64,000 nt of DNA from positions 1,067,341 to 1,131,340 of the forward strand of contig NZ_BOQE01000001.1 in NCBI RefSeq assembly GCF_023705585.1, written 5' to 3'. Below are positions 42,859 to 57,552 of this stretch, piece after piece (position 1 is the first letter of the stretch; every line of letters begins with the position of its first letter). The notes under the pieces were generated by a model, which ran no database searches, had not been told where the DNA came from, and was given only the letters and a program-made list of their open reading frames with translations. The position numbers and the translations under genes are program-made. Source of the stretch: Collibacillus ludicampi (lineage in GTDB: Bacteria; Bacillota; Bacilli; Tumebacillales; BOQE01).

Positions 42859-43206
42859 TTATGGAGTTAAACTTCCAGGATTAATAGAGGGGTGGTCAAC
42901 AAAAATTTCCCGTCCTAAAATATCCGGAATTTGCAGCAAATCAAAAATCTCACTTACTTGTGGACATAAATGAGTGATTTGAATCCTCACATTATTTTCT
43001 TTCAATTTTTCAACTAGATTTATAAATAAACCGATCCCGGTCGAATCTACAAAAGGGACTTGGGAAAAATTAATCTCTACACAGGGATATTGCTGAAGAG
43101 CTGGCAGGATTTCTTCTTCCATCACTTCTGTAATTTCAATATCCATATCCCCTTTGAAAGCTACCTGAGTTTTTTCTTCCCCAGGTATAATCTGAAATTC
43201 AAACAT
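42859..43206 (-). CDS. STAS-domain protein (anti-sigma-factor-antagonist-like), 1
   Basis: A 115-residue STAS protein. The core VPFVDSTGIGLFINLVEKL carries the usual phosphorylatable Ser (about residue 55) of SpoIIAA/RsbV-type proteins. It ends with a short extension after the STAS fold. It is the last gene of the island operon, 25 bases after the PAS kinase, and borders the left duplication. With the second STAS protein, the PP2C phosphatase and the HATPase protein it suggests a partner-switching cascade. Confidence 0.88.
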   Translation of the reverse strand: MFEFQIIPGEEKTQVAFKGDMDIEITEVMEEEILPALQQYPCVEINFSQVPFVDSTGIGLFINLVEKLKENNVRIQITHLCPQVSEIFDLLQIPDILGREIFVDHPSINPGSLTP

Positions 43207-43231
43207 TGGAATTCTCTCCTCTCATAAAGTA

Positions 43232-45436
43232 TTAAGATCGCTGAATAGGAAGAAGGATATTAACCGTGGTACCTTTACCTTCTTCACTCTCGATTTCGAT
43301 TTTACCTTTATGGTTCTCGATGATTTTATAGCAGACCATTAATCCTAGGCCAGTACCTTTTTCCTTCATGGTATAAAAGGGTTCTCCAAGTTTGGATAAA
43401 CGTTCTTTAGGAATTCCGCACCCCTCATCGATAAAACGAAGCATGATCTTTTCATTTCCGTAACGACGGCATTGAATTCGTATATGACCACCCTCCGGCA
43501 TAGCTTCCATCGCATTTTTAATTATATTAATAAAGACCTGTTTCAGTTGATTCCTCTCACAATAAATGGAAGGAAGCTCAGGTTCGATGTCCAATTCGAT
43601 TTGGATATTTCGAAGTGACATTTGAGGTTCCATCAAAGTCATGATATCAGTCAATAAGACGGATAAATCATTCTCTGTAAATTTAACAGTATGTGGTTTG
43701 GCTAAGAGTAAAAATTCGTTGATGATGGATTCAATCCGGTCGATTTCGGATAACATCAGATCAAAATATTTTTTATCATCCGTATGGGGTTTTAGGAACT
43801 GTAAGAATCCCTTAATGCTCGTGAGTGGATTCCGAATTTCATGAGCCACACCGGCTGCCAATTCCCCAACGACAGCCAGTTTTTCGGATTTCCTTAAAAG
43901 TTCCTCTGTTTTTCTCTGTTCCGTTACATCTCGACCTACCACCAATACCTGTTCAACTTCTCCTTGCTCATTGACCACCGGGGTTCCAATGACTTCTACC
44001 GTGATCCATCCTCCATTCACATGCTTATATCTAAACTCGACTCTTGTTGGACTTTTATTTATTATCATCTCTGCAAACTTTTCTTTAATGTAGGGAATGT
44101 CCTCGGGATGAACCATATCAAAAGCTGAATTTCCTTCATACATTTCGGGTGAGAACCCTAAGATTGTCTTATGAGATGGGGATGCGTATTGAACCACCCC
44201 GTTCACATCCAAAACTATAATCAAGTCAGACATGTTATCAGCAATCAGTCGATATTTGGCTTCGCTTTTTTGAAGAGCTTCTTCCGCGCGCTTTCGTACG
44301 GTAATATCCCGGATGATAGATAATATAGCTGGTTTATCCATATAAGTGATGGGACTACTTGTGACCTCTACATCTACCAGCTGACCGTCCAGACGAATGA
44401 CTTTCGCTTCGAGGACATCGGGGTCCCCTTTATCTTCCAGTTGTTTTTGTCTGACTTTCAACCGTTCATGAAAATCAGGGTGTACAAATTTAAAAATTGA
44501 TGTACCTATCAATTCATTTTTATCTTGTACCCCCAACATTTTCACGCCGGCTGGATTGATATATAAGATTTTTCCTTCTCTCTGTACCATAATCGGTTCT
44601 GGAGAAAGTTTGACGAGTAGTTGATACTTTTCCTCTGTTTCTCGTAACTTCTTTTCTATATTCTTCCTTTTGGTGATATCCGTGATAAAACCTAAAACCT
44701 CAACCACCTTCCCATCCTTGATAATAGGAGAAAGTGTGGTATTGAAAATCAGTCCGTAGAGTGTTAATTCGAAATATACGACTTTACCTGTAAAAGACTT
44801 TTGAAAATGTTCTTCAACGAGTTCCGCAACGTCTGGTTGAAACACTTCTTTTGCTGTCTTTCCAAACACACGATCAGTAGTGATTCGTAATACATGTGCA
44901 ATAATACCTTCTGAAAACAGGAAAACAATTTCCCCTGTTTTGCGTTTCTTAATTTTAATGACCAAATTCTGCAGATGTTTCACACATTTTAGGTATTCAT
45001 CGCTTAATACATCATTTAAACTGGATCTCTCATATTCCCTTCGGGTAACATTTCTAGAGATTACCCCTACGCCTATGGCGTCCCCGTTAGGATTTAGGAT
45101 TGGGGTATAGATACAATCATAAAACTTAATTTCACCAGAAGAAACGACATCATGGACAACGGAAACTTCCCGCTTCTTTATTAATGCCTCTTCGACATAT
45201 ACATCAAACCTCGCAGCATGGTCTCTGAGTAGTTCTTTCAGGGTTTTTCCAATCATCTCAGATGGGGACAGTCCGAACATCTCTGCCCCTTTCTCATTCA
45301 CTTCAAGAAACGCTCGTTCTTTGTTGTAGATCATCAGACCATCGGTACTTTGAGCAAACCAATACTTTACCATATTTTCTTCTAGATTTTCTCTTTGTAC
45401 TTTCTTGTTCAATAGGATCTGTTTCCCCTTCCCCAT
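43232..45436 (-). CDS. Soluble multi-PAS sensor histidine kinase
   Basis: A 734-residue kinase without membrane segments. Four PAS-like domains are visible at about 20-135 (GLMIYNKERAFLEVNEKGAEMFGL), 160-260, 275-385 (EPIMVQREGKILYINPAGVKMLG) and 400-510 (LIIVLDVNGVVQYASPSHKTILG). HisKA: LAVVGELAAGVAHEIRNPLTSIKGF; HATPase: NIIKNAMEAMPEGG, DEGCGIPKERLSKLGEPFYTMKEKGTGLGL. The core resembles KinA/KinE-type kinases of the sporulation phosphorelay. Start ATG 45436 is preferred; a TTG 21 bases earlier is possible. No response regulator is adjacent, so it may feed a general phosphorelay such as Spo0F. Confidence 0.88.
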   Translation of the reverse strand: MGKGKQILLNKKVQRENLEENMVKYWFAQSTDGLMIYNKERAFLEVNEKGAEMFGLSPSEMIGKTLKELLRDHAARFDVYVEEALIKKREVSVVHDVVSSGEIKFYDCIYTPILNPNGDAIGVGVISRNVTRREYERSSLNDVLSDEYLKCVKHLQNLVIKIKKRKTGEIVFLFSEGIIAHVLRITTDRVFGKTAKEVFQPDVAELVEEHFQKSFTGKVVYFELTLYGLIFNTTLSPIIKDGKVVEVLGFITDITKRKNIEKKLRETEEKYQLLVKLSPEPIMVQREGKILYINPAGVKMLGVQDKNELIGTSIFKFVHPDFHERLKVRQKQLEDKGDPDVLEAKVIRLDGQLVDVEVTSSPITYMDKPAILSIIRDITVRKRAEEALQKSEAKYRLIADNMSDLIIVLDVNGVVQYASPSHKTILGFSPEMYEGNSAFDMVHPEDIPYIKEKFAEMIINKSPTRVEFRYKHVNGGWITVEVIGTPVVNEQGEVEQVLVVGRDVTEQRKTEELLRKSEKLAVVGELAAGVAHEIRNPLTSIKGFLQFLKPHTDDKKYFDLMLSEIDRIESIINEFLLLAKPHTVKFTENDLSVLLTDIMTLMEPQMSLRNIQIELDIEPELPSIYCERNQLKQVFINIIKNAMEAMPEGGHIRIQCRRYGNEKIMLRFIDEGCGIPKERLSKLGEPFYTMKEKGTGLGLMVCYKIIENHKGKIEIESEEGKGTTVNILLPIQRS

Positions 45437-45459
45437 ATGGTGTACGCTCCCAACCAATC

Positions 45460-47580
45460 CTAGTGCAACTGTAAATATCCGTGCTTGTCTATCCTGGCAA
45501 ATACATCTTTTTCAAAGTGAAGAAATTGATGTGACTTGTTTCCTATTTGTATAATCGTCCCTTCCAAAGCATATTTGATCTTGATGGTTTGTCCATCGGG
45601 GACTCGAATACAGGTGGGGATGCCTCCACGTGTACCTGCTTCCCCAATTTCGGCTCCGAACTCCGCATAGATTTCCCCCCCACGAAGCAATCCCTCTACG
45701 ACGACCTTCCCGCCAGAATGAATTTTCGTGTTAATGATTCCTTGCCCGACAATATAAATGTCTCCACTACAGAAAATTTCACTGTTGAATGCATAAGGAA
45801 TCGTTATGGAAGCATTGGGTTCTAAAGGTGTGTTACTAAACTCATAGAGTTTTTTCACCTGTTTGATCAATTCCCGCAGGTCTTCTGGTCCTTTCAAATG
45901 GGCGGGAATAAGCTTAAGGAAACCGTTGATTAATTCATTACCTAGTTCCTTATATTCATCATTTAGGATTTGTTCCATATCCGCCTTCATTATCATTTGG
46001 GTATACTCTTTAATGACAAGAGGTAATGTATTGAACTTTTTCTCAAGTAAGATACGTATTAATGAGCTTAATCCCATCTTGGCGATATCTGATGTTTTAA
46101 AGCCGGGAGCCGAATAGATCTGATTAATCGCAGCAGAAAGACTTTCTAATTGACTATGAATTTTCTTTAACAGCTGCCCCAATTCATAGATAAAAGGATT
46201 CCTTTTCCCCGCAGTAAGATGGCTGTTTATCACGTTCTTATTGATGAAAATTCGGTTCCCCGCTTGGATATTGGCACGATTGACATTTCCGTGTACCAAT
46301 ACATCCTCGATGGCATCCACCAACATTCTCTCATCCACATTCCCTTGAATTTCAACATCCCCTGTATACCGAATATTACCTGAATGTACATTTACGTCTT
46401 CCGTATGAAGTAATTTCGGTATAATGGAAATTTTGGCGATCATCCCACGGATTTCAAACTTGGGTCGTCCAGAACCCAAGGCCACAATCTTGCTCCCCTT
46501 CTCAATGAAATCCACACCTCTTCCTAGCTCCACCACTAATTCTTGAGCAGGATCCGGAGGAACGGTTTCCCCCGTAACCGTTACACCCGGTTTTCCAGGT
46601 TGCGGCGGATGAATAACAGCTATTACCTGTCCAGCATTTACATTGGCAATCGATTTAATTACTCGATAATCCACTGACCCATCTCCCGATTTATTCGGAC
46701 CATTTAATCTCGTTTCGGTGTCAACAAGTATTTCGAGCCAACCGTCTTTTCCTTTTTGAGGCGCAATCCCTTTCGCGATTTCAAAAGTCCCTGGTTCCGT
46801 CGTTTCGGTTGCTTTCAAGATTTCAATCTTTTGAATCCCTGTTTTGATGTTCAATTCCTGCATTTTTTGGACAACGTGATTAGGGTTGAGGTGATTCCAA
46901 ACCTCGACGGTTTCTTTTACCTCCAACTGGATATGATGATTTGGCTCCTGATCTATAAGGGTACAGGTCTTCTTGTATCCAGGTTGAATATGCAGGGTGG
47001 CCGTCATCTTTTTCTCATCCAGTTCGATCGACCACTCCGTATGTTTAATTTCATGATTTAATTCCACTTTAATTGTGTCTTTTTCCGATATGACGGTTGT
47101 TTTTCTCACTAACTCTCCGTTTTTGTAGAGAGAGACTCCTTTCGCAGGAGTGATCATTGGATAATGCGAAGGCGTTTCCTTACAATAAATACGGCCATCC
47201 TTCACCCATACCGATCCGAATTCCTTGTCCGCTTCGGGTCCCCTATCTTTGGTGTAACCTATGCGTTCGGTACTCGTAGAAGAGAGAGTTGTTTCTGCTG
47301 GTAATTTTTCCGCATCTGGAAAGTCAAGTTTGGTTTCTTCCACCGAAAATTCTAGTTCATCCTTTTTCGTAGAGAGATTCTCTCTATGTATGCCGTTCAC
47401 CGGTCTTTTCTTTATGAGCCTGACAATGGCAGGTTTTGACCCAATGCCCAAAAAACCTTTAGATTCAGGCTCAATAATCTCGATATCCACTTCTTGTATG
47501 GTGGCATCTAGCAATTGTAACCCGACTTCAATCGCTTCTTTTACGTTTTTTCCTTTGGATATGATTCCGTTACCGCTCAT
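45460..47580 (-). CDS. Jag_N-DUF342 (FapA-like) polymerising protein
   Basis: A 706-residue protein. Residues 1-58 (SKGKNVKEAIEVGLQLLDAT, IEPESKGFLGIGSKPAIVRL) match the Jag_N domain of SpoIIIJ-associated Jag proteins. From about 120 on it has a DUF342/FapA region with KGVSLYKNGELV, DYRVIKSIANVNAGQVIAVI, TVTGETVPPDPA and a beta-helix-like segment VHSGNIRYTGDVEIQGNVDERMLV plus EIFCSGDIYIVGQGIINTKIHSGGKVVVEGLLRGGEIY near the C-terminus. FapA of Vibrio regulates signalling through IIA-Glc; Firmicute members are uncharacterised. Its ATG overlaps the phosphatase stop (ATGA). Confidence 0.82.
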   Translation of the reverse strand: MSGNGIISKGKNVKEAIEVGLQLLDATIQEVDIEIIEPESKGFLGIGSKPAIVRLIKKRPVNGIHRENLSTKKDELEFSVEETKLDFPDAEKLPAETTLSSTSTERIGYTKDRGPEADKEFGSVWVKDGRIYCKETPSHYPMITPAKGVSLYKNGELVRKTTVISEKDTIKVELNHEIKHTEWSIELDEKKMTATLHIQPGYKKTCTLIDQEPNHHIQLEVKETVEVWNHLNPNHVVQKMQELNIKTGIQKIEILKATETTEPGTFEIAKGIAPQKGKDGWLEILVDTETRLNGPNKSGDGSVDYRVIKSIANVNAGQVIAVIHPPQPGKPGVTVTGETVPPDPAQELVVELGRGVDFIEKGSKIVALGSGRPKFEIRGMIAKISIIPKLLHTEDVNVHSGNIRYTGDVEIQGNVDERMLVDAIEDVLVHGNVNRANIQAGNRIFINKNVINSHLTAGKRNPFIYELGQLLKKIHSQLESLSAAINQIYSAPGFKTSDIAKMGLSSLIRILLEKKFNTLPLVIKEYTQMIMKADMEQILNDEYKELGNELINGFLKLIPAHLKGPEDLRELIKQVKKLYEFSNTPLEPNASITIPYAFNSEIFCSGDIYIVGQGIINTKIHSGGKVVVEGLLRGGEIYAEFGAEIGEAGTRGGIPTCIRVPDGQTIKIKYALEGTIIQIGNKSHQFLHFEKDVFARIDKHGYLQLH

Positions 47581-48443
47581 TCTTCCTTCTCCTTTATGCT
47601 TGAATCATAGGGAGAATTAAAGCTGGATATATCCGTGGTTTGCTCTCCAACTTTTAGAATCACCATCGTAATATCGTCTTTTAGAGGGGTACCATCTGTA
47701 TAAGAGTCGACCGCATCAATCACCATTTTTTCAATCTCGTTCACACTTTTCCGCTGATGTTGGAGGAGGACATTGATCAACCGTTCTCGCTTAAACTGCT
47801 CCCCTTCCGAATTTTGAGCCTCTATGATTCCGTCAGTATAGAAATAGATATAATCATCTGTCTTTAACTGTAGCTTCGCTTCTTGATAAACTTGATTGGG
47901 TAACCCGCCTAACATAATCCCAGATACTTTCGGAAGTTCTTCTATTTTATTTCCTCTAACGAGTAACGGAAGATTATGACCGGCATTTGCGTAAGTCAGG
48001 ATACATGTACTAGGATCCCAATCTGCACAGAATACCGTGACAAAAGAGCGCAACGAACGTAAATCTTTATACAAGGCATTGTTCATCGCGGTCAGTGTTT
48101 CACCCGGTCCTGCGGTGTGCTCCGTAGCGCTGCGAAAAGCTCCCCGAGTTAAAATCATGAGCATCGCGGCTGGGATACCTTTCCCCATGACATCCCCAAT
48201 TACGATTCGGAGTTTTCCGTTGTTTAAAGGATAAAAATCATAATAATCTCCACCAATCAACCTGGCCGGGATGGATGAACCGGTTAATTCTCCACTAATC
48301 AGCTTTGGTTTTTCCCCATTTAACAAGGTGGTTTGAATATTTCGTGCTAGATTGATTTCCCTCCATAGGAATTTATCCATCTCCTCAAGATTCGGAGTTG
48401 TATTCAGCTGGTGATGGAAAGATAATCGATTACGGAAGTTCAT
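47577..48443 (-). CDS. PP2C-type (RsbU/SpoIIE-like) serine phosphatase
   Basis: A 288-residue protein; the phosphatase domain covers about 40-265. Motifs: IGGDYYDFYPLNNGKLRIVIGDVMGKGIPAAMLM (metal Asp residues), YANAGHNLPLLV, FYTDGIIEAQNSEGE and KDDITMVIL. A short N-terminal helix (INLARNIQTTLL) is the typical linker of RsbU-like enzymes. It probably dephosphorylates the STAS proteins. Start overlaps the upstream STAS stop (TAATG), end overlaps the DUF342 start, so the genes are tightly coupled. No sensory N-terminal domain is attached. Confidence 0.9.
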   Translation of the reverse strand: MNFRNRLSFHHQLNTTPNLEEMDKFLWREINLARNIQTTLLNGEKPKLISGELTGSSIPARLIGGDYYDFYPLNNGKLRIVIGDVMGKGIPAAMLMILTRGAFRSATEHTAGPGETLTAMNNALYKDLRSLRSFVTVFCADWDPSTCILTYANAGHNLPLLVRGNKIEELPKVSGIMLGGLPNQVYQEAKLQLKTDDYIYFYTDGIIEAQNSEGEQFKRERLINVLLQHQRKSVNEIEKMVIDAVDSYTDGTPLKDDITMVILKVGEQTTDISSFNSPYDSSIKEKEE

Positions 48444-48763
48444 TAGAGTCGCTCCTTTTGGAGGGCTTCTAGGATTGTAAACAATCCTACAATTTCAAAA
48501 ATCTGCTTTGTCGTTTCATCCATCCCTTCGAGATGAATCTTAAACCTCTTTTCTTGTGCCAAATAAATTAATTCCATAATGGCTCCAATACCAGTAGAAT
48601 CAATAAATTCTAAGTTAGAAAGATCAATGACCAAAGAAGAAAAATTACTAGGGATTTCGTCAATTTTGCTTGAAAATACATCTATCGTTGTAATATCCAG
48701 TACACCATTTACTTTGAACAGGACATGGATGTCTTGATTCTGGATATCAATTGTTAAACTCAT
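48443..48763 (-). CDS. STAS-domain protein, 2
   Basis: A 106-residue STAS protein with LSNLEFIDSTGIGAIMELIYLA; the Ser at about 56 is the expected phosphorylation site. It lies next to the phosphatase gene and 30 bases after the sensor gene. It and STAS 1 may be alternative substrates of the HATPase kinase (53196-54176). Confidence 0.88.
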   Translation of the reverse strand: MSLTIDIQNQDIHVLFKVNGVLDITTIDVFSSKIDEIPSNFSSLVIDLSNLEFIDSTGIGAIMELIYLAQEKRFKIHLEGMDETTKQIFEIVGLFTILEALQKERL

Positions 48764-48792: not shown

Positions 48793-50379
48793 TTAAAGTT
48801 TGAATTTTTTTATGTGTTCAAGAAGGTTATTCGATAAATCGGACAAGTCTCTTGACTGATCATGAAGAGACTTCAACAGATCAGATAATGTGAGGGTCAT
48901 ATCGGTCGTTGCCGCTGTATGATCCTTGGCAATTTGTCGCATCACATGAATCTTCTCCAAAAGCTCTTTCTCTTTTTCGGTTTCGGGTCTGGATTGAAGA
49001 TATCTTTCGATGAAATCAAGGGAATTCATCATCTCTTCTAACTGTTCTCGAGCATGCATGGTCGTTTCCATTGAGATGGTAAACATTTTCTCAACAGATT
49101 GATTGGCTTCAGCTTCCAATAGGACGGCCATCCTTCGGGCTTTGATGGCCTGCTCACTCGTATCCTTGAGTACCTGATGTAAGGTTTTGGTCATGCGATT
49201 GATACTTTCAGACAGTTTTCTAAGTTCATTGTTATCCTGCACGTGACTACGGGAAGTAAAGTCACCGGCTTCCAACAATTTAATATGTTTTTTAATCCGT
49301 TGAATGTTTTCGTAGATTCGATGAAAGAAACCAACCGTAACGAAAAACAATCCAAGCATCGATACCAAACCGAACACAATCAAAAGAATGGAATGGCGAT
49401 ACATTGGCCAACTCATGGCTCCATAATCCAAGGCAATGTAAATGGTTTGATCCTTATTGCAGGGAATGAACATCTTATAAACTTTGTTTCCGTTTACCTT
49501 TTCTACATAGTAGATTTTATCCGGCTTGTCGGCCAACTTGGTTAATGTTTCCTCATCTTTCTCACTCTCGAATTTGAATTGTCCGTACTCAATCTTTTTC
49601 ATAGGAGGATACAATTTCTTCGCCAAACTAGGATCTTTAAAAACATGGGGATTGACAACCGCTATTTCTTTAACTAAAGGATTGCTTTTCATGACTTGGC
49701 TGATCCAAGCATTAGGACCCACTTGTTCCGTAAATTGGTAAACCTCGTTCGCTTGAATGTAAGGATCGATGATATAATTCGCTCCTGGGCGATGATAATA
49801 GGCATATTTGAAAAATTCAGGTTTATCGGTGTGGGAACCCGATTGGGAAATAGGGAGAACCATGATGTTTTTTTCTGTATAAGCGCCACCCGAAACTCTT
49901 GGTACATCTCCTTTTAATAAGTCGAACATGGGACGTGTTGCATCAGGACCGAATTGTTTAAAAGAGAAACCTACTTCTTTAGGATCAGTTGCCTTCACTC
50001 CAATCACGTCATCTCCGTTTTGAGCCAACAGAGTGATCCCTGCCAAACCTAACGAATCTCGCATTTTTATTAATTCTTCATTCCTTATTTCACCCAAACC
50101 CCGGCCTTGCAACTGGTCACTGATATACTTGGCACAAGCAATCAACTTCAAATCGATTTGATGCTCGATCGATTTGGAGGCCATATTGGTTTCTTGAATC
50201 CCTTGTTCAACACTTTGAGCGACTAATAATCCTTGGTTCTCTACATCTTTAGAAATTTGTTCATTGATAAAATATAATTGAATCGTTCCTGAGAATAATG
50301 CAATTACGAGCAACGTGATGAGTGAGCGGATCAAAAATTGAAATCGTAAAGTCGTTGTCTGTTCCTGGTTAGTAATCAT
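48793..50379 (-). CDS. Two-TM sensor with HAMP and coiled coil, no output domain
   Basis: A 528-residue membrane protein. TM1 at about 15-35 (FLIRSLITLLVIALFSGTIQL), an extracytoplasmic Cache-like sensor of about 290 residues, TM2 at about 330-352 (ILLIVFGLVSMLGLFFVTVGF), HAMP (about 353-405), then a long helical tail (about 405-528) without the chemoreceptor hairpin tip or any kinase, cyclase or phosphatase domain. The architecture could pass a signal by protein contact to the STAS/phosphatase module directly downstream. The cytoplasmic tail resembles a shortened receptor helix. RBS region at 50380-50395 contains AGAGGAGAG. Confidence 0.8.
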   Translation of the reverse strand: MITNQEQTTTLRFQFLIRSLITLLVIALFSGTIQLYFINEQISKDVENQGLLVAQSVEQGIQETNMASKSIEHQIDLKLIACAKYISDQLQGRGLGEIRNEELIKMRDSLGLAGITLLAQNGDDVIGVKATDPKEVGFSFKQFGPDATRPMFDLLKGDVPRVSGGAYTEKNIMVLPISQSGSHTDKPEFFKYAYYHRPGANYIIDPYIQANEVYQFTEQVGPNAWISQVMKSNPLVKEIAVVNPHVFKDPSLAKKLYPPMKKIEYGQFKFESEKDEETLTKLADKPDKIYYVEKVNGNKVYKMFIPCNKDQTIYIALDYGAMSWPMYRHSILLIVFGLVSMLGLFFVTVGFFHRIYENIQRIKKHIKLLEAGDFTSRSHVQDNNELRKLSESINRMTKTLHQVLKDTSEQAIKARRMAVLLEAEANQSVEKMFTISMETTMHAREQLEEMMNSLDFIERYLQSRPETEKEKELLEKIHVMRQIAKDHTAATTDMTLTLSDLLKSLHDQSRDLSDLSNNLLEHIKKFKL

Positions 50380-50412: not shown

Positions 50413-51900
50413 CTACTTTACCCTTCGCTGAGCTAGTTTGCGTAGTGTTACCTTGTCGGTTTTTCCTTGAACCACAGGGATCTCCTGAATGGTTATAAAT
50501 CGATCCGGAACTTTAAAATTGGCAATCTGGGACGAACAAAACATACGCAATTCATGCGCATCACACGTTCCATTCGGAACAATAAAAGCCACGATTTCTT
50601 CACCAAAAGCCGGGTGCGGGATCCCTACGACAGCGGATTGAGAAACCGAAGGATGACGATTCAAGAAATTCTCGATTTCTGCAGGAAAAACAGGTTGCCC
50701 GCCTTTTTTAATCATGTCTTTCTTTCTACCTACAATCTTCAGCCGATTATTTTCCGTTCGTTTCACCAAATCTCCGGTGGTAAACCATCCGTCCTCGGAA
50801 TAAACATCTTTTGTTAAATCCGGTCGTTGGTAATAGCCTGTAAAGGCTGCTTTCGGAGAACGGAAAATGACCTCTCCGATACCATCCTCCGTTTCCTGCT
50901 CAATCTTAAAATCAACACCTGAGAAAACCTCCCATTCAATGCCGTTACGTAAATCATCAGGCGTATACATCAATAACCCTAATTCGGATAAGCCATAGAT
51001 CCCCAGAAATCCACAGCTGATTCCTTCGGCTATCCTTTCTATCAATTCTTCCCGTATGATCTCCCCCGCAAAGATGCATAGATCAAAACGATTCAAAATG
51101 GCAGGGTTCATATGTTTAATAAACGTGTAGATTCCTTGAAACACGGAGGGTGTACTGTTCACCTTGTTACATTGGTGTTGATCTAATAACGGAATGATTT
51201 TCGGAATATCAAGGTACTCCGTGGCTATGGTTTTCAATCCCGTCCGAAGGCAGGATAGCATCCATACCAGTCCATAGGGTGCAGTCGGATTAAGCGTTTG
51301 AAACACCGAATCCTGTTTTGAAAGTTGGGTTACACTCAACAGATTGTCAGACCAATTTTGGAGCGCCTCCGTTGTTAACATGATTCCTTTGGGAACCCCC
51401 GTACTTCCGGATGAGCATCCGATCAAATCAATCTCTTGTTGTTCGATAGGGCGGGGGAGGCCAGCGATTTCAATCTTTTCCCAATGGAACGAATCCTCCG
51501 ATTCGTAGAAGACGGTTTGCTTACCGCTCTCTTTCGCCCATTTCTTCACTTCCTCACCGAATAAAAACCCTTGATGTTCCTTTACGGTGAAGATGATGTG
51601 AGGAGCCGTGATGTTCAGTACGCTTGTTAAATCTTCCTTTCGATATTGCCAACTTAAAGGAACCACGATCCCGCCACATTGATTAATGGCAATGGTAAGT
51701 GCCAGATATGCCGGAATGGAAGGGACTAATAATCCGACCTTTTTTCCGCGTAAGCTCCCCTCCTGTTGAAGAAGTTCCCGATATTTTTCGATCTCCTTTT
51801 TTAAGTCAGATAAGGTATAGGTGTTTGTGAAGGTGACTAATACTGTTTTTTCCAGATTCACCTCTGGTTGCTGAAAAATCCATTCATAGAATGTCCTCAT
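50413..51900 (-). CDS. AMP-forming acyl ligase
   Basis: A 495-residue ANL-superfamily adenylating enzyme. P-loop IGCSSGSTGVPKGIML (about 172-187), GIYGLSELGLL, GDLVKRTENNRLKIVGRKKDMIKKGGQPVFPAEIE and the C-terminal catalytic Lys in VQGKTDKVTLRKLA are intact. Its ATG overlaps the end of the ACP gene (ATGA), so it most likely loads an acyl group on that ACP. The acyl specificity cannot be read; the domain size fits a stand-alone acyl-ACP or acyl-CoA ligase. Confidence 0.88.
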   Translation of the reverse strand: MRTFYEWIFQQPEVNLEKTVLVTFTNTYTLSDLKKEIEKYRELLQQEGSLRGKKVGLLVPSIPAYLALTIAINQCGGIVVPLSWQYRKEDLTSVLNITAPHIIFTVKEHQGFLFGEEVKKWAKESGKQTVFYESEDSFHWEKIEIAGLPRPIEQQEIDLIGCSSGSTGVPKGIMLTTEALQNWSDNLLSVTQLSKQDSVFQTLNPTAPYGLVWMLSCLRTGLKTIATEYLDIPKIIPLLDQHQCNKVNSTPSVFQGIYTFIKHMNPAILNRFDLCIFAGEIIREELIERIAEGISCGFLGIYGLSELGLLMYTPDDLRNGIEWEVFSGVDFKIEQETEDGIGEVIFRSPKAAFTGYYQRPDLTKDVYSEDGWFTTGDLVKRTENNRLKIVGRKKDMIKKGGQPVFPAEIENFLNRHPSVSQSAVVGIPHPAFGEEIVAFIVPNGTCDAHELRMFCSSQIANFKVPDRFITIQEIPVVQGKTDKVTLRKLAQRRVK

Positions 51901-52133
51901 AAAGAACGTCCTCCTGTCAAAGTCCGATACAAATTCTCCACACTTTTGATATCCTCGAAACTTTGAATGGTTCCTAAGTCTAAGCCAAACCTTTTCGAAA
52001 TCTCGATAATGAGGTTCACCATCGACAAGGAATCCATACCCAAATCCTCTTGAAAAGAGGAGTGATTTTGGATTTTTTCCAGAGGAATGTTCGAAATCTC
52101 GGAAACCATGCTACGGAAATCATCTAATGTCAT
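51897..52133 (-). CDS. Acyl carrier protein
   Basis: A 78-residue carrier protein with FQEDLGMDSLSMVNLIIEIS; Ser 35 in DSL is the phosphopantetheine attachment site. It differs from the FabG-linked AcpP and lies between an alpha/beta hydrolase and a ligase, an arrangement seen in small acyl-modification pathways. RBS GAGGAG precedes ATG 52133. Confidence 0.92.
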   Translation of the reverse strand: MTLDDFRSMVSEISNIPLEKIQNHSSFQEDLGMDSLSMVNLIIEISKRFGLDLGTIQSFEDIKSVENLYRTLTGGRSL

Positions 52134-52145: not shown

Positions 52146-53195
52146 CTAATCTTCCATAAACCACTGCGCGGATAATTGACGAATTTCGTGGAGCTTAAAA
52201 TTGCAGCAATGGCCCTCTTCCTCGTATTCAACCAACTGGCTGTGAACCAGTTGTTCCTTTAAACCATAAATATCTTGATCGGTCACCATCACATCCTGTC
52301 CTCCGTGAAACAGAAGAATTCTTCGGTCTTTAGGGAGCATTTCCAGGGACGGTAAAAAATCAGCTCCCTCTAACACTTCATTCATTCTTTCGGTAAAATA
52401 ATCGGGCAATCTCACTTTGTCCGTAGGAAGAGCCGGACTGACTGCCACAGTTTTCCTTACCTTCGGATGTTGGCTTCCATAGATAGCCCAGGAAGCCCCT
52501 GAACTCGTACCAAACAGGTAAATCGGAAGATTTTGCGTTGAATGGCATGAAGACTCAATGACCTTATTTACAAACTGGATCCACCGCTGCCTATTTCCTT
52601 TTATACCATTCATGAGATAAGTCTCGCCTTGCCCCGGTCCGTCGAAGCTAACGGTAGCAAAACCGGACCGAACAAAATCCAGCTCATAGGTTATCAACTC
52701 TTCTTTGGAGGAATCTAGGGGATTCACCATAACTACACATCCCTTGGGATGTTGGGGCATTCGAAGCCGTCCTTTACAAAGACATCCGTCGAGCTCAAAG
52801 GAAATATACGTGGTCACATAAGCGGAAAGAGTATCCGCTTGCTGGATCGCACTGAAACATTCCCGGAACCATCTTTCCTTTTCCGGCCCGCGTTGAGGAA
52901 AGATCCAGTACATGAGGTTAAAATATAAGCCTGCAATCCGATACATGTACTCCGCTTGTTCAAGCATTTCTTGTTGTTTCAAAAAATCCGCTTGTTTCTT
53001 TTTATCTATGGCTAATCGATACCAGCCATTAATCCAGTTTTCTTTGCAGGTCAAGGTAGGACGGATTTCAAACAGATCTTGTTTCTCCACTCCATGAGCG
53101 AGCCAACGGTCCCAGAAACCATTGATAAATCTGGCGGTAAATAAGGTTTTGTCGATTGCGGTGGGATTGATTTGTCTGTCCTCAATGGAATGCAT
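52146..53195 (-). CDS. Alpha/beta hydrolase (FrsA/DHPON-hydrolase-like)
   Basis: A 349-residue hydrolase. An all-helical N-terminal cap of about 140 residues (FINGFWDRWLAHGVEK; EQAEYMYRIAGLYFNLMYWIF) precedes the core. The nucleophile lies in LFGTSSGASWAIYG, the acid in LFHGGQDVMVTD, and the His in EEEGHCCNF; FDGPGQGETYL is the oxyanion-loop region. This matches the family of 2,6-dihydroxypseudooxynicotine hydrolase and FrsA-like proteins. Next to the ACP gene it may act as a thioesterase or acyl transferase; this is inference. Confidence 0.85.
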   Translation of the reverse strand: MHSIEDRQINPTAIDKTLFTARFINGFWDRWLAHGVEKQDLFEIRPTLTCKENWINGWYRLAIDKKKQADFLKQQEMLEQAEYMYRIAGLYFNLMYWIFPQRGPEKERWFRECFSAIQQADTLSAYVTTYISFELDGCLCKGRLRMPQHPKGCVVMVNPLDSSKEELITYELDFVRSGFATVSFDGPGQGETYLMNGIKGNRQRWIQFVNKVIESSCHSTQNLPIYLFGTSSGASWAIYGSQHPKVRKTVAVSPALPTDKVRLPDYFTERMNEVLEGADFLPSLEMLPKDRRILLFHGGQDVMVTDQDIYGLKEQLVHSQLVEYEEEGHCCNFKLHEIRQLSAQWFMED

Positions 53196-54176
53196 CTACG
53201 ATTCACCCTCTTTCTTGTTCATAATCAGTACGATGGTTGAACCTTTGGGTGATGTATAAAGAAGAACTTGTTTGGCCATTTTCATCATCAATGTAAACCC
53301 TTGTCCTAAAGATTTCTTTGTGGAATACCCCGCCAATAATGTCATATTGGGAAGGTCTTTCAGAGAAAAACCAGGACCCTTATCTTCCACAATGACACGG
53401 ATCACCCCGTTGTCCTCTACTAAGGTCATCCTTCCTTCTTCCGCATGTTTCAGGATGTTTGTAATCGCTTCTGAGATCATCAATATCCAACCCATCACAT
53501 TTACTCCGTTCAACGAGAGCTCCTGTAATGCTTTATGAGCGAGATTTCTACACTTTGGAATATCGGATCGCTTCTTGATCTCACCTTCACAGAGAATACG
53601 ACCCTTCTTGTATTGAGGGATTTCATCTTTGGAGATCAGGAGGAATTTTCTCTGCGTCACGGCATACATGACATCCCGATAGATTTTCCATTCCTTTAGT
53701 TCCGTTTGTTCTTCGACTTCGGTTTCCTTAGGCTCTTTTTTATTAACGACCACTTCCTCTTCATTAGAAAGAGGTACAAAAGCAGGCATTTCACTCTTAA
53801 TCTGTTTTTTAAGCTTCTCATACGTTTCAATCAGACAAGACTCTACATCCAAAGAAAGGTTTAACTCTTTCAGTCGCTCCGTAATCTTTTCTCTGTTTTG
53901 TACCCATGAATATAATAAGCCGGCTAAATGGATAGGAAGCTCTCGATCGACAACACTCATCGGTTCGTTTTCAAAGGTAAGTCTAGAGAATGCAAGATAG
54001 AACAATTCATCTGCACCCTCATAATTCAGCCGTAGTGCCATGTGTCGAGCAAGGTATCCAATAACAGCTCTTTGTTTCACATCATGCAACGTCAAACCAG
54101 AAGCAAGAGGTGGGGGCTGTGAATATTGTTTCTGTTCGGTACTTCTTTGAAATACCTTCTTGAATAACCGTCTCAC
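53196..54176 (-). CDS. RsbW/RsbT-like HATPase protein with an N-terminal helical domain
   Basis: A 326-residue protein. The C-terminal third is an RsbT/RsbW-type ATPase: MISEAITNILKHAEEGRMTL (N-box), VEDKGPGFSLKDLPNMTLLA (G1) and STKKSLGQGFTLMMKMAKQV (G2). Residues 1-120 are helical (YLARHMALRLNYEGADELFYLAFSRL) and resemble an HD-like or RsbR-like helical bundle, then an acidic linker (VVVNKKEPKETEVEEQTELK). It starts at GTG 54176 with AAAGGCGG about 10 bases upstream. It is the candidate serine kinase/anti-sigma-like partner for the two STAS proteins. Confidence 0.8.
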   Translation of the reverse strand: MRRLFKKVFQRSTEQKQYSQPPPLASGLTLHDVKQRAVIGYLARHMALRLNYEGADELFYLAFSRLTFENEPMSVVDRELPIHLAGLLYSWVQNREKITERLKELNLSLDVESCLIETYEKLKKQIKSEMPAFVPLSNEEEVVVNKKEPKETEVEEQTELKEWKIYRDVMYAVTQRKFLLISKDEIPQYKKGRILCEGEIKKRSDIPKCRNLAHKALQELSLNGVNVMGWILMISEAITNILKHAEEGRMTLVEDNGVIRVIVEDKGPGFSLKDLPNMTLLAGYSTKKSLGQGFTLMMKMAKQVLLYTSPKGSTIVLIMNKKEGES

Positions 54177-54194: not shown

Positions 54195-54920
54195 TTACAA
54201 AATACCTAATGGAGGCATGATTGTGACTTCATCGATAACAGCTCCTTTTGGCTGACAAAGGATATAAACGAGATGTTGAGCAAGTACAGAGGTAGGAATC
54301 ATAGCTAATACATCCGGTTTCGGATCAATCGAATCCCAAAAGCTGCTGTTCACGGCACCGGGTAGGACGGCGGTTACTTGGACTCCCTTGGAACGTAATT
54401 CTGCTTGCAGGACACGCGTCAAACCCAAAATACCGAATTTAGAAGCTGAATATCCCCCGCATCCTGGAAGAATTGTGGTTCCCGCGATCGAGACGAGATT
54501 GATCATGTGACCTTTTCTTTGTTCGACCATGTGCTTACCGAAGTATTTACAGGTGAGGTAGGTTCCACGAAGATTAACGTTTATCATCTGATCAAAATCC
54601 TCGGTGGATGAGTCCAGTACGCTGGAGAACATTCCTACCCCGGCACAATTGATTAAGGCATCGACGGACCCAAAGTGTTCAAGGGAAACGCTTACGAACT
54701 TCTGAACGGAGGATTCATCCGTAACATCGAGCGGGACAGGTAGAACACTTCCTCCCTCGGTATCTATTTGATGGGCCAGATCATGTAATTCTTTTTCGTT
54801 TCTACTTCCAATAATTAACTTGGCCCCTAACTTACGGAGTTGAATGGCTGTTTCTTTCCCTATTCCACGGCTTGCTCCCGTAATGGCAACCGTTTTACCT
54901 TGCAGCTGCTTTGTATCCAT
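54195..54920 (-). CDS. Short-chain reductase, candidate sepiapterin-reductase-type enzyme
   Basis: A 241-residue SDR. VAITGASRGIGKETAIQL, INCAGVGMFSSVLDSS, LVSIAGTTILPGCGGYSASKFG (Ser and YxxxK) are intact. It overlaps the PTPS stop by one base and follows folE-PTPS, the exact enzyme order of tetrahydrobiopterin synthesis (GTP cyclohydrolase I, PTPS, sepiapterin reductase). The assignment as a pterin reductase rests on this context; the sequence alone only supports SDR. Confidence 0.85.
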   Translation of the reverse strand: MDTKQLQGKTVAITGASRGIGKETAIQLRKLGAKLIIGSRNEKELHDLAHQIDTEGGSVLPVPLDVTDESSVQKFVSVSLEHFGSVDALINCAGVGMFSSVLDSSTEDFDQMINVNLRGTYLTCKYFGKHMVEQRKGHMINLVSIAGTTILPGCGGYSASKFGILGLTRVLQAELRSKGVQVTAVLPGAVNSSFWDSIDPKPDVLAMIPTSVLAQHLVYILCQPKGAVIDEVTIMPPLGIL

Positions 54921-55750
54921 TAGGCCTCAACACCTCTTTTTGATCCGAAGTATTCAAAGTAGTTTTTCTCCGTTTCCCAAAGACCGATTTTATGCAGATT
55001 GGGAAGATGGGGCGCTAGAAGCTTCCAAATGACGATTGCGACATTCTCCGAAGTAGGATTCAGTTCTTTGAATTCTTCCGTATCTAAGTTCAAATGTTTG
55101 TGATCAAACTTCTGTAGAACAATACTCTCTACGATTTGATCCAATTCTGCTAAATTGATAATCATACCGGTGACTGGATCAGGTTCGCCGGCTACCGTTA
55201 CATCGAGATAATAGTTATGTCCATGGCCATGAGGGTTATTGCATTTACCAAAGATCTTTACATTTTCCTCCGCAGAGAGTTTATCACTATGTAAACGGTG
55301 GGCCGTACAGAAATGATATTTCCGGGTTAACGTCACCATGGACCCATCCTCCTTTTCGGAATACAAAAATGGATTTTCCCAAAGTCTAATTCTATGTAAT
55401 TCACTATCGGGCATGTTACCTTGTAAGGAGTTCCAAAGATAGCTCACGATATTTTCGGTGGTTGGAATGTGTTTACGGAAATAGGGATGTTCCCGATCTA
55501 AAAATCTTCCATCCAATTCTTCGTTTACTAGATGCTTGACTACACGATCCACCTCCGTGATATTAACGACAATCCCTGATCTTTCATCGACGTCTCCTTT
55601 CACCATCACTTCTAGCGTATAGTCATGACCGTGGCCATTGGGATTGCTGCAGGGTCCGAACACGCGTCGATTTTCTTCATCACTCCATGATGGGACACGA
55701 TAAACATGGGTAGCGGAAAAGGATAGTTTTCTAGACATGTAGATCTTCAT
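54920..55750 (-). CDS. Tandem 6-pyruvoyl-tetrahydropterin synthase/QueD-like protein
   Basis: A 276-residue protein of two fused PTPS domains. Domain 1 (about 5-135): FSATHVYRVP, GPCSNPNGHGHDYTLEV. Domain 2 (about 140-268): FCTAHRLHS, FGKCNNPHGHGHNYYLDV, then FDHKHLNLD, PTSENVA and WETEKNYFEY. The catalytic Cys and zinc-binding HxH are present in both, but domain 1 has LDGRFLDRE where domain 2 has the usual catalytic-His segment FDHKHLN. Domain 1 may therefore be less active or have another role. RBS AAAGGAGGAGG precedes the start. It converts dihydroneopterin triphosphate to a pyruvoyl or carboxy pterin. Confidence 0.9.
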   Translation of the reverse strand: MKIYMSRKLSFSATHVYRVPSWSDEENRRVFGPCSNPNGHGHDYTLEVMVKGDVDERSGIVVNITEVDRVVKHLVNEELDGRFLDREHPYFRKHIPTTENIVSYLWNSLQGNMPDSELHRIRLWENPFLYSEKEDGSMVTLTRKYHFCTAHRLHSDKLSAEENVKIFGKCNNPHGHGHNYYLDVTVAGEPDPVTGMIINLAELDQIVESIVLQKFDHKHLNLDTEEFKELNPTSENVAIVIWKLLAPHLPNLHKIGLWETEKNYFEYFGSKRGVEA

Positions 55751-55769: not shown

Positions 55770-56339
55770 CTACTCTCTGATTAAAGATTGCTCGAATTCA
55801 CGGACCAACGCCTCGTTCTTACGGAATATACCTTTCTTTACAGTGGTTACTGTGACACTTCCTGGCTTCTTCACCCCTCGGGCACACATGCATAGATGGG
55901 TTCCTTCTAATGTCACGATGACCCCTTCGGGTTTCAAAACATCGGTGATCGCCTCCGCGATTTGTTGTGTCATTCGTTCCTGTACTTGCGGACGTTTGGA
56001 TGTCAGCTCTACCAAGCGGGCAAACTTACTGAGTCCAACCACACGTCCATTAGGGATATACCCGATGTGCGCCTTACCATAGAAAGGTATAAGGTGGTGT
56101 TCGCAAAACGTATAGTAGCTGATGTCTTTCACTACAACCATTCCTTCGTATTCTTCTTCGAAGGTTGTGGTTAAGGCGGTTTTGGGATCTACCCCTACTC
56201 CTCCGAAAACTTCTGCGTACATTTTTGATACCCGCTTGGGCGTATCCAGAAGTCCTTCTCGATTTGGGTTTTCTCCTATCAATTCTAAGATCGATCGAAT
56301 ATGTTGTTCCAAAAGCTCCTGTTTTGTTATTGTTGCCAT
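55770..56339 (-). CDS. folE: GTP cyclohydrolase I
   Basis: A 189-residue type-I enzyme. Zinc and catalytic residues lie in [22 protein letters not shown] (Cys, His-His) and [19 protein letters not shown] (Cys); the N-terminal [15 protein letters not shown] is typical. It converts GTP to dihydroneopterin triphosphate. It is first in the island operon, 55 bases below a c-di-GMP riboswitch terminator, followed by PTPS and SDR genes rather than folate genes (folB/folK/sul), which points to a dedicated pterin product. Confidence 0.95.
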
Positions 56340-56393: not shown

Positions 56394-56434
56394 AAAAAAC
56401 CCACCTTGTTCAAGGTGGTTTCCAAATTCCACCT
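56394..56434 (-). terminator. Riboswitch-controlled terminator/antiterminator before folE
   Basis: On the minus strand CCACCTTG (56418-56411) pairs with CAAGGTGG (56408-56401) followed by TTTTTT (56399-56394). An AGGTGG just upstream (56434-56429) can pair with CCACCT of the stem and so act as an antiterminator. The GAAG-AGG bases of that segment also belong to the 3' side of aptamer stem P1. Confidence 0.85.
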
Positions 56435-56435
56435 C

Positions 56436-56526
56436 TTCGGTAACTGGCTGGCATAGTCATTGACCGTAGCCCCTCTAGTTTTGCGTCCCTGGCTTTCGAC
56501 AGGTTTGCCATTTATCGGAAGGTTTA
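56436..56526 (-). ncRNA. Class-I cyclic di-GMP riboswitch (GEMM-I), copy 1
   Basis: The minus strand reads GGCAAACCTGTCGAAAGCCA then GGGACGCAAAACTAGAGGGG and CTACGGTC, and later ATGCCAGCCAGTTACCG. These are the conserved GEMM-I elements: GGCAAACC, a P2 GAAA tetraloop, GGGACGCAAA, CTAxGGT and ATGCCAGC...GTTACCG. P1 is formed by CCTTC and GAAG(A)GG. The expression platform is the terminator at 56394-56434. Because ligand-stabilised P1 would occupy the antiterminator, c-di-GMP is predicted to switch the folE operon off (inference). Confidence 0.93.
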
Positions 56527-56931: not shown

Positions 56932-56956
56932 AAAAAACCGCTTGAAAAGCGGTTTT
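56932..56956 (-). terminator. Intrinsic terminator of the DNA-binding protein gene
   Basis: AAACCGCTT (56935-56943) and AAGCGGTTT (56947-56955) form a 9-bp stem with a 3-base loop and a T-run on the minus strand, directly after the stop at 56964. It separates this gene from the folE operon downstream. Confidence 0.88.
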
Positions 56957-56963
56957 AAATGAA

Positions 56964-57359
56964 CTATCCAATCGATTGTATCTGTTCTTTGATCTTCTCT
57001 GCTAAAGGGGTTGCTTCTAATTCCCCTTTTAATTTTCGATATTCATCAAGAAATGAAGAGACATCGGGCTTTACACCTTTTTGTTTACACTCACGGGCCA
57101 TGAGACGAAGATAGTAAAGAAACATTACTTCCGAGAATGTCGTCTCAGTTTTCGGAGTACGGCTGAGATGTTCACCTGTTTTTATAATCCCTTTTTTTAT
57201 TTGATCAACCTTTCGCCGAACACTTGAAAATGGAAGCCCTAGAGATATTGAAAGTTGCCGGATCGACATGTGATGAAGATTTTCCTTTATGAAGGCAACT
57301 TCCGAATGCGTCCAACAATGATGTACCATCGAACGATTCTTGTATCTCTTTTCCCCCAT
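56964..57359 (-). CDS. Myb/SANT-like or HTH DNA-binding protein under riboswitch control
   Basis: A 131-residue protein. Residues about 12-55 (CWTHSEVAFIKENLHHMSIR then QLSISLGLPFSSVRRKVDQI) match a Myb/SANT- or GcrA-like helix-turn-helix with an N-terminal Trp and a C-terminal recognition helix. The remainder is charged and helical (ARECKQKGVKPDVSSFLDEY). ATG 57359 is chosen because later ATGs lack an RBS, though GAGAGG is rather far (13 bases). It has its own c-di-GMP riboswitch 53-105 bases upstream. It could regulate the adjacent island; no target is visible. Confidence 0.65.
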   Translation of the reverse strand: MGEKRYKNRSMVHHCWTHSEVAFIKENLHHMSIRQLSISLGLPFSSVRRKVDQIKKGIIKTGEHLSRTPKTETTFSEVMFLYYLRLMARECKQKGVKPDVSSFLDEYRKLKGELEATPLAEKIKEQIQSIG

Positions 57360-57411
57360 TGTCTTAAATTTTCCTCTCTCTCTAATTTTGATCTGTACAA
57401 TTTGCTTTCGT

Positions 57412-57453
57412 AAAAAAATAAAGAATTCCACCTTGAACATGGTGGAATTCTTT
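57412..57453 (-). terminator. Riboswitch-controlled terminator, copy 2
   Basis: AAAGAATTCCACC (57420-57432) pairs perfectly with GGTGGAATTCTTT (57441-57453), followed on the minus strand by TATTTTTTT. The upstream AGGTGGAATAAAG segment (57465-57453) repeats the right arm and can act as antiterminator. Confidence 0.88.
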
Positions 57454-57463
57454 ATTCCACCTC

Positions 57464-57552
57464 TTCGGTAACTGGCTGGCATAGTCACTGACCGTAGCCC
57501 CTATAGTTTTGCGTCCCTGGCTTTCGCCAAGTTTGCCATTATCGGAAGGTTT
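57464..57552 (-). ncRNA. Class-I cyclic di-GMP riboswitch (GEMM-I), copy 2
   Basis: Almost the same as copy 1 over the aptamer: GGCAAACTTGGCGAAAGCCA, GGGACGCAAAACTATAGGGG, CTACGGTCAGTGACTATGCC, AGCCAGTTACCG. Differences from copy 1 fall in the P2 stem, where pairing is kept, and a few joining bases. It precedes the DNA-binding protein gene and has its own terminator. Confidence 0.93.

Follow-up and report, generated by a model that had tools for sequence, protein, structure and literature searches.

A conserved, riboswitch-headed operon of Bacilli joins pterin synthesis genes to a membrane sensor and a partner switch, and may encode a self-sensing signalling system

Introduction

Why would genes for making a pterin share one operon with a membrane sensor and the proteins of a phosphorylation switch, behind a riboswitch for cyclic diguanylate (c-di-GMP)? 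The question is raised by a 64,000-nucleotide stretch of the Collibacillus ludicampi genome (4.09 Mb, 99.9% complete), covering positions 1,067,341–1,131,340 of contig NZ_BOQE01000001.1 in assembly GCF_023705585.1, and hereafter referred to as the window. An earlier sequence-only reading of the window proposed an operon of twelve genes under c-di-GMP riboswitch control, making a possibly acylated pterin signal or cofactor and sensing it, or its conditions, through a HAMP sensor and a STAS switch. The answer favoured here is that the operon encodes a self-contained system which makes and senses a pterin signal, and feeds it into a partner switch of a split SiaA/RsbU type; I regard the chances of this reading as evenly balanced.

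Results

Organization and conservation of the operon

Thirteen minus-strand open reading frames (ORFs) run from folE, at 56339, to a STAS protein ending at 42859. No gap between them exceeds 33 bp, and several overlap by 1–4 bp. With the single c-di-GMP-I riboswitch at its head, the operon extends from about 56520 down to 42859. Pfam and NCBIfam matches support the identities of all 13 ORFs, and the families named by the sequence-only reading are all present as close same-strand genes, although its count of twelve was one short.

The first three genes, all on the minus strand like those that follow, are folE (GTP cyclohydrolase I; 55770–56339; PF01227, E 5e-73), a tandem PTPS carrying the PTPS-II motif CxxxxxHGH in each half (54920–55750; identified by motif and alignment), and a short-chain dehydrogenase/reductase (SDR; 54195–54920; PF00106, E 9e-54) that is a sepiapterin-reductase-like candidate. 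Next come a HATPase with a helical N-terminal domain and a SpoIIAB/RsbW/SiaB-like kinase domain (53196–54176; PF13581), an alpha/beta hydrolase related to AntI and to 2,6-dihydroxy-pseudo-oxynicotine hydrolase (52146–53195; PDB sequence matches, E ~1e-10), and two optional members, an acyl carrier protein (ACP; 51897–52133; PF00550, E 6.5e-11) and an AMP-forming acyl ligase (50413–51900; PF00501, E 5e-37). The membrane sensor (48793–50379; structure model m999658198baf) combines an extracellular double Cache-like domain, a HAMP domain and a short hairpin like that of methyl-accepting chemotaxis proteins (MCPs). It is followed by STAS protein 1, with its serine in DSTG (48443–48763; PF01740), a PP2C/SpoIIE-type phosphatase with a short N-terminal linker and no sensor of its own (47577–48443; PF07228, E 4e-52), a Jag_N-FapA (DUF342) protein of the flagellar assembly protein A family (45460–47580; PF14804, PF20250, PF03961), a PAS histidine kinase (43232–45457; Pfam and locus comparison), and STAS protein 2, with its serine in DSxG (42859–43206; PF13466). 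A pattern scan for terminator-like sites found none on the minus strand between the operon genes, and two within it, at 50561 and 43042, both inside coding sequence; the scan is not exhaustive, having missed two upstream hairpins recognised by eye.

Among 398 genomes of the class, the operon HATPase has a full-length match in six and a broken form in a seventh, and all seven genomes, the window's included, have folE-PTPS-SDR alongside. The reverse draw, by tandem PTPS, returned eight of the 398, of which seven carry the operon. Beyond the class, the only tandem PTPS found in 398 genomes of the phylum (E 1e-40, few genomes per group) was that of the window's genome. Alignment of the HATPase against 84,980 species genomes yielded 56 loci in Bacilli, in which the HATPase is present by construction, from genera that include Bacillus, Domibacillus, Brevibacillus, Paenibacillus, Cohnella, Oceanobacillus, Gracilibacillus and Pullulanibacillus. 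Brevibacillus gelatini DSM 100115 and Heyndrickxia ginsengihumi are two culturable carriers of the operon. The two samples overlap, locus L079 of the scan being genome G290 of the class draw, and L084 being G222.

The tandem PTPS and SDR are intact in 43 of the 56 scan loci, while a 44th, L088, has remnants only. These 43 loci also contain the hydrolase (43), STAS protein 1 (42), PP2C (42), the sensor (41), FapA (40), folE (39), STAS protein 2 (39), the ligase (32) and the ACP (29); the hydrolase is intact in none of the 13 loci without intact pterin genes. Blind clustering of the ORFs of 57 loci returned the same 12 families plus PAS-type proteins, the next family occurring in 15 of the 57, and the 12 families stand mostly in the same order across dozens of genomes. 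Five NCBI families share this gene order and content, and the recurrence of the 12 families exceeds chance. The synteny to be expected of a real gene system is therefore widespread. The pterin and switch parts also remain together in the rearranged operons L058, L062 and L074 and, as far as the sequence tells, they form one unit, as the sequence-only reading had supposed.

The PAS kinase, which that reading had included in the system, falls outside the conserved core and is a local insertion: PAS-type proteins occur in 37 of the 57 loci, with mixed length and position, and only in the window does one stand between FapA and STAS protein 2.

In four loci (L036, L037, L039 and L040), the STAS-PP2C-FapA-STAS genes lie ahead of folE and not behind the sensor. 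This switch block is diverged, with PP2C 33–39% and FapA 29–30% identical to the window, versus 56–69% for the PP2C of the scan loci. The pterin enzymes of the four loci are as similar as elsewhere, and the sensor is 48–52% identical in L036, L039 and L040. The same pterin-hydrolase-sensor block thus occurs with two kinds of switch block.

Some loci depart from the common layout in other ways. In Oceanobacillus salinisoli the operon is split: its HATPase, ligase and sensor genes lie in one riboswitch-bearing locus, and its pterin, hydrolase and switch genes in a second (L086 and L090). Two copies are decaying, and both have intact relatives: L040 (G368) has an in-frame stop in the PTPS and broken HATPase and hydrolase frames, and L088 holds short remnants of the PTPS, SDR and hydrolase.

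The sensor varies together with the pterin genes and the hydrolase

In the DISCRIMINATING test, the PTPS was not seen in 12 of the 56 loci. Eleven of these genomes have no tandem PTPS genome-wide, three being without any PTPS match and eight having partial single-domain matches only; the twelfth is O. salinisoli, whose tandem PTPS lies in another locus. The genome of L088 has no intact tandem PTPS besides its remnants, bringing the genomes without an intact copy to twelve. The switch proteins of the 12 PTPS-less loci are similar to those of the remaining loci in identity to the window (HATPase 42.6 vs 41.3%, PP2C 62.8 vs 62.8%, FapA 40.0 vs 39.5%; L088 is counted as pterin-bearing in these means). 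The hydrolase was not found in the 11 loci of genomes without tandem PTPS. The sensor is 41–55% identical to the window's in 42 loci with pterin genes (L088 included), is diverged to 23–27% in six pterin-less loci (L055, L061, L064, L087, L097 and L109), and was not found within the pterin-less loci L102, L104, L107 and L108. Alkalihalophilus pseudofirmus OF4 is one of the hosts with a diverged sensor.

A tree of the switch proteins was used to count independent changes. It has 52 rows, 10 of them pterin-less, with L086, L092, L096, L101 and L102 left out (fewer than four of the five proteins called) and L090 set to sensor-present, its genome carrying the sensor at L086. The sensor is diverged or missing in nine of the 11 tree-placed genomes without an intact tandem PTPS. 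Eight changes of pterin presence are needed, at least six of them forced by supported branches, and in six of seven independent pairs a change in the pterin genes is accompanied by one in sensor type, with none opposite (p=0.031). With L036, L037, L039 and L040 added, and L088 treated as pterin-less, the sensor follows the pterin genes in six of eight pairs, again with none opposite (p=0.031). On this extended tree, the hydrolase goes with the pterin genes in all eight pairs (p=0.008), and the sensor with the hydrolase in seven of nine, none opposite (p=0.016). A control split on PP2C identity gave no trend on the tree. This sensor type goes with every intact hydrolase (44 of 44 rows), and is lacking in 10 of the 12 rows without one.

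The sensor gene also keeps a fixed place. In 43 of 43 scan loci it comes directly after the ligase (33) or the hydrolase (10, one of them a remnant), at a distance of 18–102 bp, and this adjacency persists in rearranged operons; the count places L086 with the pterin loci, sets PAS matches aside, and takes L088 as the hydrolase remnant. The simplest reading of these patterns would be an exchangeable signal-and-receptor block, made up of the pterin genes, hydrolase and receptor, that is underlain by a switch block of HATPase, STAS, PP2C, FapA and STAS.

Structure of the sensor

The sensor model (mean predicted local distance difference test score, pLDDT, 85.8) has a helical hairpin besides its extracellular region, which is double Cache-like, and lacks a kinase, phosphatase or MCP tip; the CheA/CheW-binding pattern of MCP tips occurs in none of 51 sensors. 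Among the Foldseek matches of the model are models of MCPs and WalK, the Chlamydia RsbU periplasmic domain, and McpH, which senses uric acid. Comparison with the WalK sensor domain (VIA) gave Z 12.1 over 133 residues at a root-mean-square deviation (rmsd) of 3.2, supporting the Cache fold, and comparison with Mlp24 (VIA) gave Z 9.9 over 219 residues of 40–326 at rmsd 6.2. For the purine sensors termed dCache_1PU, the McpH motif has been described as Y121/R129/W140/F167/D169 (PMC11245519).

The partner-switch proteins

The motifs expected of a partner switch appear complete in the operon genes, for the HATPase kinase, the STAS serine and the PP2C acidic residues alike. The C-terminal domain of the HATPase compares with SpoIIAB at Z 15.3 over 128 residues and rmsd 2.3, with RsbW at Z 14.2 and with SiaB at Z 11.3 (VIA), and the kinase pattern SE..TN..KHA is present in 54 of 57 HATPases; its helical N-terminal domain spans residues 30–129, in blocks with pLDDT mostly of 71–95. 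The serine motif is DSTG in 50 of 50 STAS 1 proteins and DSxG in 49 of 49 STAS 2 proteins. In the PP2C, D66, D84, D204 and D257 are invariant in 54 of 54 sequences; conserved aspartates of this family bind metal. The top NCBIfam match of the PP2C is SiaA, at 50.8 bits far below the model cut-off of 700. Taken together, the membrane-Cache-HAMP sensor and the separate PP2C gene look like a split SiaA/RsbU.

Some other relatives of the HATPase in Bacilli carry a fused HD-GYP domain in which the HD and HHE motifs are present; five were recognised by Pfam and two more by alignment (L041, L042, L043, L045, L048, L049 and L050). They are membrane proteins of about 685–860 residues, and adjoin relatives of STAS, PP2C or FapA, L048 having only a weak PP2C match. 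These fusions tie the kinase family to c-di-GMP independently of the riboswitch. They also suggest that the N-terminus of the operon HATPase may be a degenerate HD-GYP; its profile match to HD-GYP has a probability of 36% over 31 columns, full-length comparison aligned the kinase part only, and the structural comparison covered that part.

Another group of relatives (L046, L047, L051, L052, L053 and L054) consists of proteins of about 410–450 residues with a Cys-rich N-terminus, CxxCPxxxxCxxCL, and a HATPase end, mostly near PP2C/STAS genes. Their N-terminal half looks PilZ-like by eye; no Pfam domain was found there in the four such proteins scanned.

FapA belongs to a flagellar family that includes the Vibrio FapA (PMC6877527), and is found in a flagellar operon of Borrelia (PMC11607428). 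Because of this family membership, and of the flagellin present in all 26 genomes examined, I infer that the output of the switch is likely to concern motility or surface life.

Pterin enzymes and the hydrolase

A second folE lies elsewhere in the genome (G000:C1:3815988), so that the operon folE need not serve folate. CxxxxxHGH, described as the motif of the biopterin enzyme PTPS-II (PMC5041015), is present twice in all 44 clustered PTPS ORFs, the window's included. Seventeen of the 44 fit CxxxHGH too, probably from an HGHGH in the second half, as in the window. The second half aligns full-length with the 6-pyruvoyl tetrahydropterin synthases 1b66 (E 5.5e-39) and 3i2b (E 4.3e-37), both animal enzymes. 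The first half keeps the Cys and the HGH histidines, and has Gly81 at the position of second-half His217, part of an Asp-His pair with a known role in PTPS; L040, with its in-frame stop, was excluded from this alignment. The SDR keeps Tyr157/Lys161, and sepiapterin reductase 2bd0 ranks 11 among its PDB SDR matches.

In the hydrolase, S231, D301 and H329 are present in all 45 aligned sequences. Its relative AntI is reported to carry out a retro-Claisen step on a bicyclic ACP-bound intermediate (PMC11165489). An acylated pterin, which the sequence-only reading had allowed for, is weakened as an obligatory product: the ACP is absent from 14 and the ligase from 11 of the 43 intact pterin loci and, both being optional, acylation cannot be essential.

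Pterin users were sought in a chosen set of 26 genomes, 22 with and four without the pterin genes. A biopterin-dependent aromatic hydroxylase is found in one of the 26. Nitric oxide (NO) synthase, which uses biopterin, is matched in 15, including three of the four pterin-less ones. Neither enzyme was found in the window's genome.

The c-di-GMP riboswitch

A c-di-GMP-I aptamer heads the operon (56436–56519, minus strand; Rfam RF01051, 75.0 bits vs a gathering score of 35), followed by an intrinsic terminator identified in a terminator scan (56401–56418, minus strand), and then by folE. The riboswitch control that the sequence-only reading assigned to the operon thus holds for one aptamer; the second of the two in the window (57464–57547, minus strand; RF01051, 79.4 bits vs 35) heads a separate upstream unit and serves a 131-residue ORF (56964–57359, minus strand) with its own riboswitch and its own terminator. 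This ORF closes in its own hairpin and T-run, read by eye. It looks helix-turn-helix by eye, and has no Pfam match even at E 1.

Leaders of the other loci were searched with a covariance model built from eight aptamers, up to 1.5 kb upstream of the first cluster gene. Some seeds of the model recur in the scan (L079 repeats L038 and L084 repeats L035), where matches are by construction. An aptamer was found upstream in 39 of the 56 loci (31 of the 43 with intact pterin genes and eight of the 13 others), so that riboswitch control is common among relatives but not universal. At L062 it lies farther upstream, ahead of the rearranged front part. In three Domibacillus loci (L057, L065 and L066), folE is preceded by a series of two or three c-di-GMP-I aptamers, and a terminator-like hairpin comes after each of them.

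In the truncated transcript of the window, pairing between the terminator 5' arm and the 3' side of P1, a stem of the aptamer, has a probability of 0.79. A terminator-like hairpin is present in all 45 leaders (43 from the 39 loci and two in the window), a plain count, with shuffles applied to the P1 pairing only. In transcripts cut before the 3' arm, this pairing has a mean of 0.468 versus 0.220 when shuffled; it exceeds the shuffled mean in 41 of the 45 leaders, and in 22 of them at most 5% of 20 shuffles reach the observed value. These partition-function pairings with shuffles were used instead of a simpler rule-based sorting of the 45 leaders, which gave seven OFF, none ON, 35 ambiguous and three without a terminator. 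Given that the terminator arm and P1 can pair in this way, the layout predicts a switch that is OFF at high c-di-GMP, where ligand binding would free the terminator.

Discussion

A proposed make-and-sense pterin signal and its rivals

At low c-di-GMP, the predicted OFF switch would let transcription through, and GTP would be turned into a biopterin-like tetrahydropterin by FolE, the PTPS-II-type tandem PTPS and the SDR. Modification or release of the pterin would then fall to the AntI-like hydrolase, sometimes with the ACP and ligase. After presumed export, it is this hydrolase-processed pterin, or the redox state of the pterin, that the Cache-HAMP sensor would detect on the outside of the membrane. 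Lacking an output domain, the sensor would be a likely in-trans regulator of the separate PP2C, presumably through direct contact, and the phosphorylation state of both STAS proteins would depend on PP2C together with the SpoIIAB-like HATPase. The STAS output could act on FapA, on motile or sessile behaviour, and possibly on c-di-GMP itself. The earlier proposal that the HAMP sensor senses the product of the operon gains from the co-variation of the sensor with the pterin genes and hydrolase, and from its adjacency to the hydrolase or ligase; binding itself I infer.

A more specific form of this scheme would be a Gram-positive pterin autoinducer circuit, either diffusible or redox-reporting, in which synthase genes, an extracellular receptor and a partner switch are gated by c-di-GMP, and the receptor is tuned to the hydrolase-modified product. 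The tuning is suggested because every intact hydrolase comes with this receptor type. I hold this form only tentatively, and its chances fall short of those of the general scheme.

Several observations weigh against a make-and-sense signal. L080 is pterin-less, yet keeps a pterin-type sensor (42%), as does L088, which has remnants of the pterin genes only. At L101 the pterin genes are present and the locus lacks a sensor; L090 likewise has none in the locus, although the same genome carries one at L086. At L037 (G035), folE-PTPS-SDR are present without the hydrolase, and the sensor is just 28% identical, which argues that the sensor goes with the hydrolase and not with pterin synthesis itself; this locus, where no riboswitch was found, may show the contribution of the hydrolase to the signal. 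Divergence in pterin-less loci extends beyond the sensor domain to the coil and HAMP, so the whole receptor was exchanged and not the pocket alone. The Cache fold is generic, and no pterin-binding motif was identified in the sensor. The operon contains no exporter. The covariance model found no riboswitch upstream of 17 of the 56 loci, seven of which are Rfam-negative as well; the other ten were scanned with the covariance model only, and one of the loci concerned, L082, has just 229 bases upstream of folE. Finally, with NO synthase in 15 of the 26 genomes, the pterin may serve as a cofactor in some hosts.

The single tandem PTPS found away from the operon, at L131 of another Bacilli genome (G170; 5075–9300), also points the other way. 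It lies beside an SDR and a Cache-HAMP-GGDEF-EAL protein, no HATPase operon being found, and the sensor of the latter is nearer to the pterin-less type by its top four matches; it was therefore not used as proof of pterin sensing. A tandem PTPS occurs in one of the four family members searched. As an observation in its own right, L131 is a second link of pterin genes to c-di-GMP enzymes.

The cofactor role is the rival that survives best, though I consider it unlikely. Here the pterin would be an intracellular cofactor or antioxidant of a low-c-di-GMP motile state, used by NO synthase or by an unknown oxygenase, and the sensor would read an unrelated cue. Besides the NO synthase count, L080, L088 and L037 fit this view in showing that the sensor and pterin synthesis are separable, and shared riboswitch control alone could hold the genes together. 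However, NO synthase is unmatched in the window's genome and ten others of the 26, it also occurs in three of the four pterin-less genomes, and aromatic hydroxylase is unmatched in 25 of the 26. Neither the co-variation of sensor, pterin genes and hydrolase, nor the adjacency of the sensor to the hydrolase or ligase, would be expected of a cofactor.

Less probable is a coincidence, a long operon of c-di-GMP-repressed motility-phase genes in which pterin chemistry is not directly linked to the switch. Such an operon would fit flagellin in every one of the 26 genomes and the flagellar family of FapA, and pterin genes and switch genes do each occur without the other; but gene arrangement and content recur over five NCBI families, with at least six forced changes of pterin presence, and the blocks stay side by side where operons are rearranged. 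Least probable of all is a pterin acting inside the cell as ligand of the HATPase N-terminal domain or of FapA, with the sensor reading an outside cue, since the HATPase is equally similar in pterin-less loci (the means given above), even if its helical N-terminal domain is without an assigned role and relatives carry HD-GYP there.

Comparison with known systems

One near counterpart is SiaABCD of Pseudomonas aeruginosa, which likewise has a membrane HAMP sensor, a PP2C, a HATPase kinase and a STAS-like target. SiaA is described as a single chain with two membrane segments, a HAMP domain and a PP2C domain, and the system as a partner switch to the diguanylate cyclase SiaD (PMC7647112). In contrast, the operon has separate sensor and phosphatase genes, two STAS proteins and FapA in place of the diguanylate cyclase, and adds pterin synthesis genes and a c-di-GMP riboswitch. 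No GGDEF domain standing on its own was found in the Pfam matches of the operon, and none was recognised among the conserved neighbours.

PruR-DcpA of Proteobacteria is the best-worked-out case of bacterial pterin signalling, the sensed pterin being still to be identified, and in Agrobacterium PruA/PruR/DcpA links pterin and c-di-GMP, the pterin being sensed at the periplasmic face of the inner membrane (PMC13259868). The operon shares the link of pterin with c-di-GMP, but unites synthesis with candidate sensing, employs a partner switch, and belongs to Bacilli and not Proteobacteria. No PruR or DcpA-type GGDEF-EAL protein is among the operon proteins, to which this search was confined. A word search of the 2026 review of pterin signalling found no mention of Bacillus, Firmicutes, riboswitch or STAS (PMC13259868).

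The row of folE, CxxxxxHGH-type PTPS and SDR resembles tetrahydrobiopterin synthesis by GCH-I, PTPS-II and sepiapterin reductase; it differs in its PTPS, a tandem fusion with one altered half, in an SDR that is a sepiapterin reductase candidate only, and in the context, aromatic hydroxylases being absent from all but one of the genomes examined. As in RsbU-RsbV-RsbW and SpoIIAA/SpoIIAB, there are a PP2C, a STAS protein with a DSTG serine, and a HATPase with an N-box, whereas no sigma factor gene was seen in the conserved set, which has the sensor, FapA and pterin genes instead. The hydrolase is homologous to AntI, the ACP-hydrolase of Photorhabdus anthraquinone synthesis, and in the operon adjoins an ACP and a ligase. 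Unlike in the AntI system, there is no ketosynthase among the operon proteins, and the hydrolase is a constant companion of intact pterin genes while the ACP and ligase are optional.

The statement of the sequence-only reading that no system with this combination had been described stands: literature searches (open-licence papers, by titles and abstract starts) gave no prior description of it among the matches listed. The parts are known, and I regard the combination as a new variant, with a real chance of being a new kind of signalling.

What makes the operon worth pursuing is that a single cluster, retained in dozens of Bacilli species, reaches from synthesis through a candidate receptor to a phosphorylation output, and that natural pterin-less relatives with a changed receptor make its questions directly testable, namely whether a tetrahydropterin can be an extracellular signal, and how c-di-GMP gates partner switching in Gram-positives. 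The make-and-sense reading would suggest functions for the tandem PTPS, for FapA-STAS-PP2C clusters and for HD-GYP-HATPase fusions. If true, it would be a self-sensing kind of signalling that the literature searched does not describe, and one that both reads and feeds the decision between motile and sessile life.

Neighbouring genes

Outside the operon, an ORF at 38780–39445 of the window resembles a ComQ-type prenyltransferase by eye, and no ComX-like partner was recognised among the nearby short ORFs. Two flagellin-family genes lie at 1062493–1065372 of the genome contig, 2–5 kb before the start of the window.

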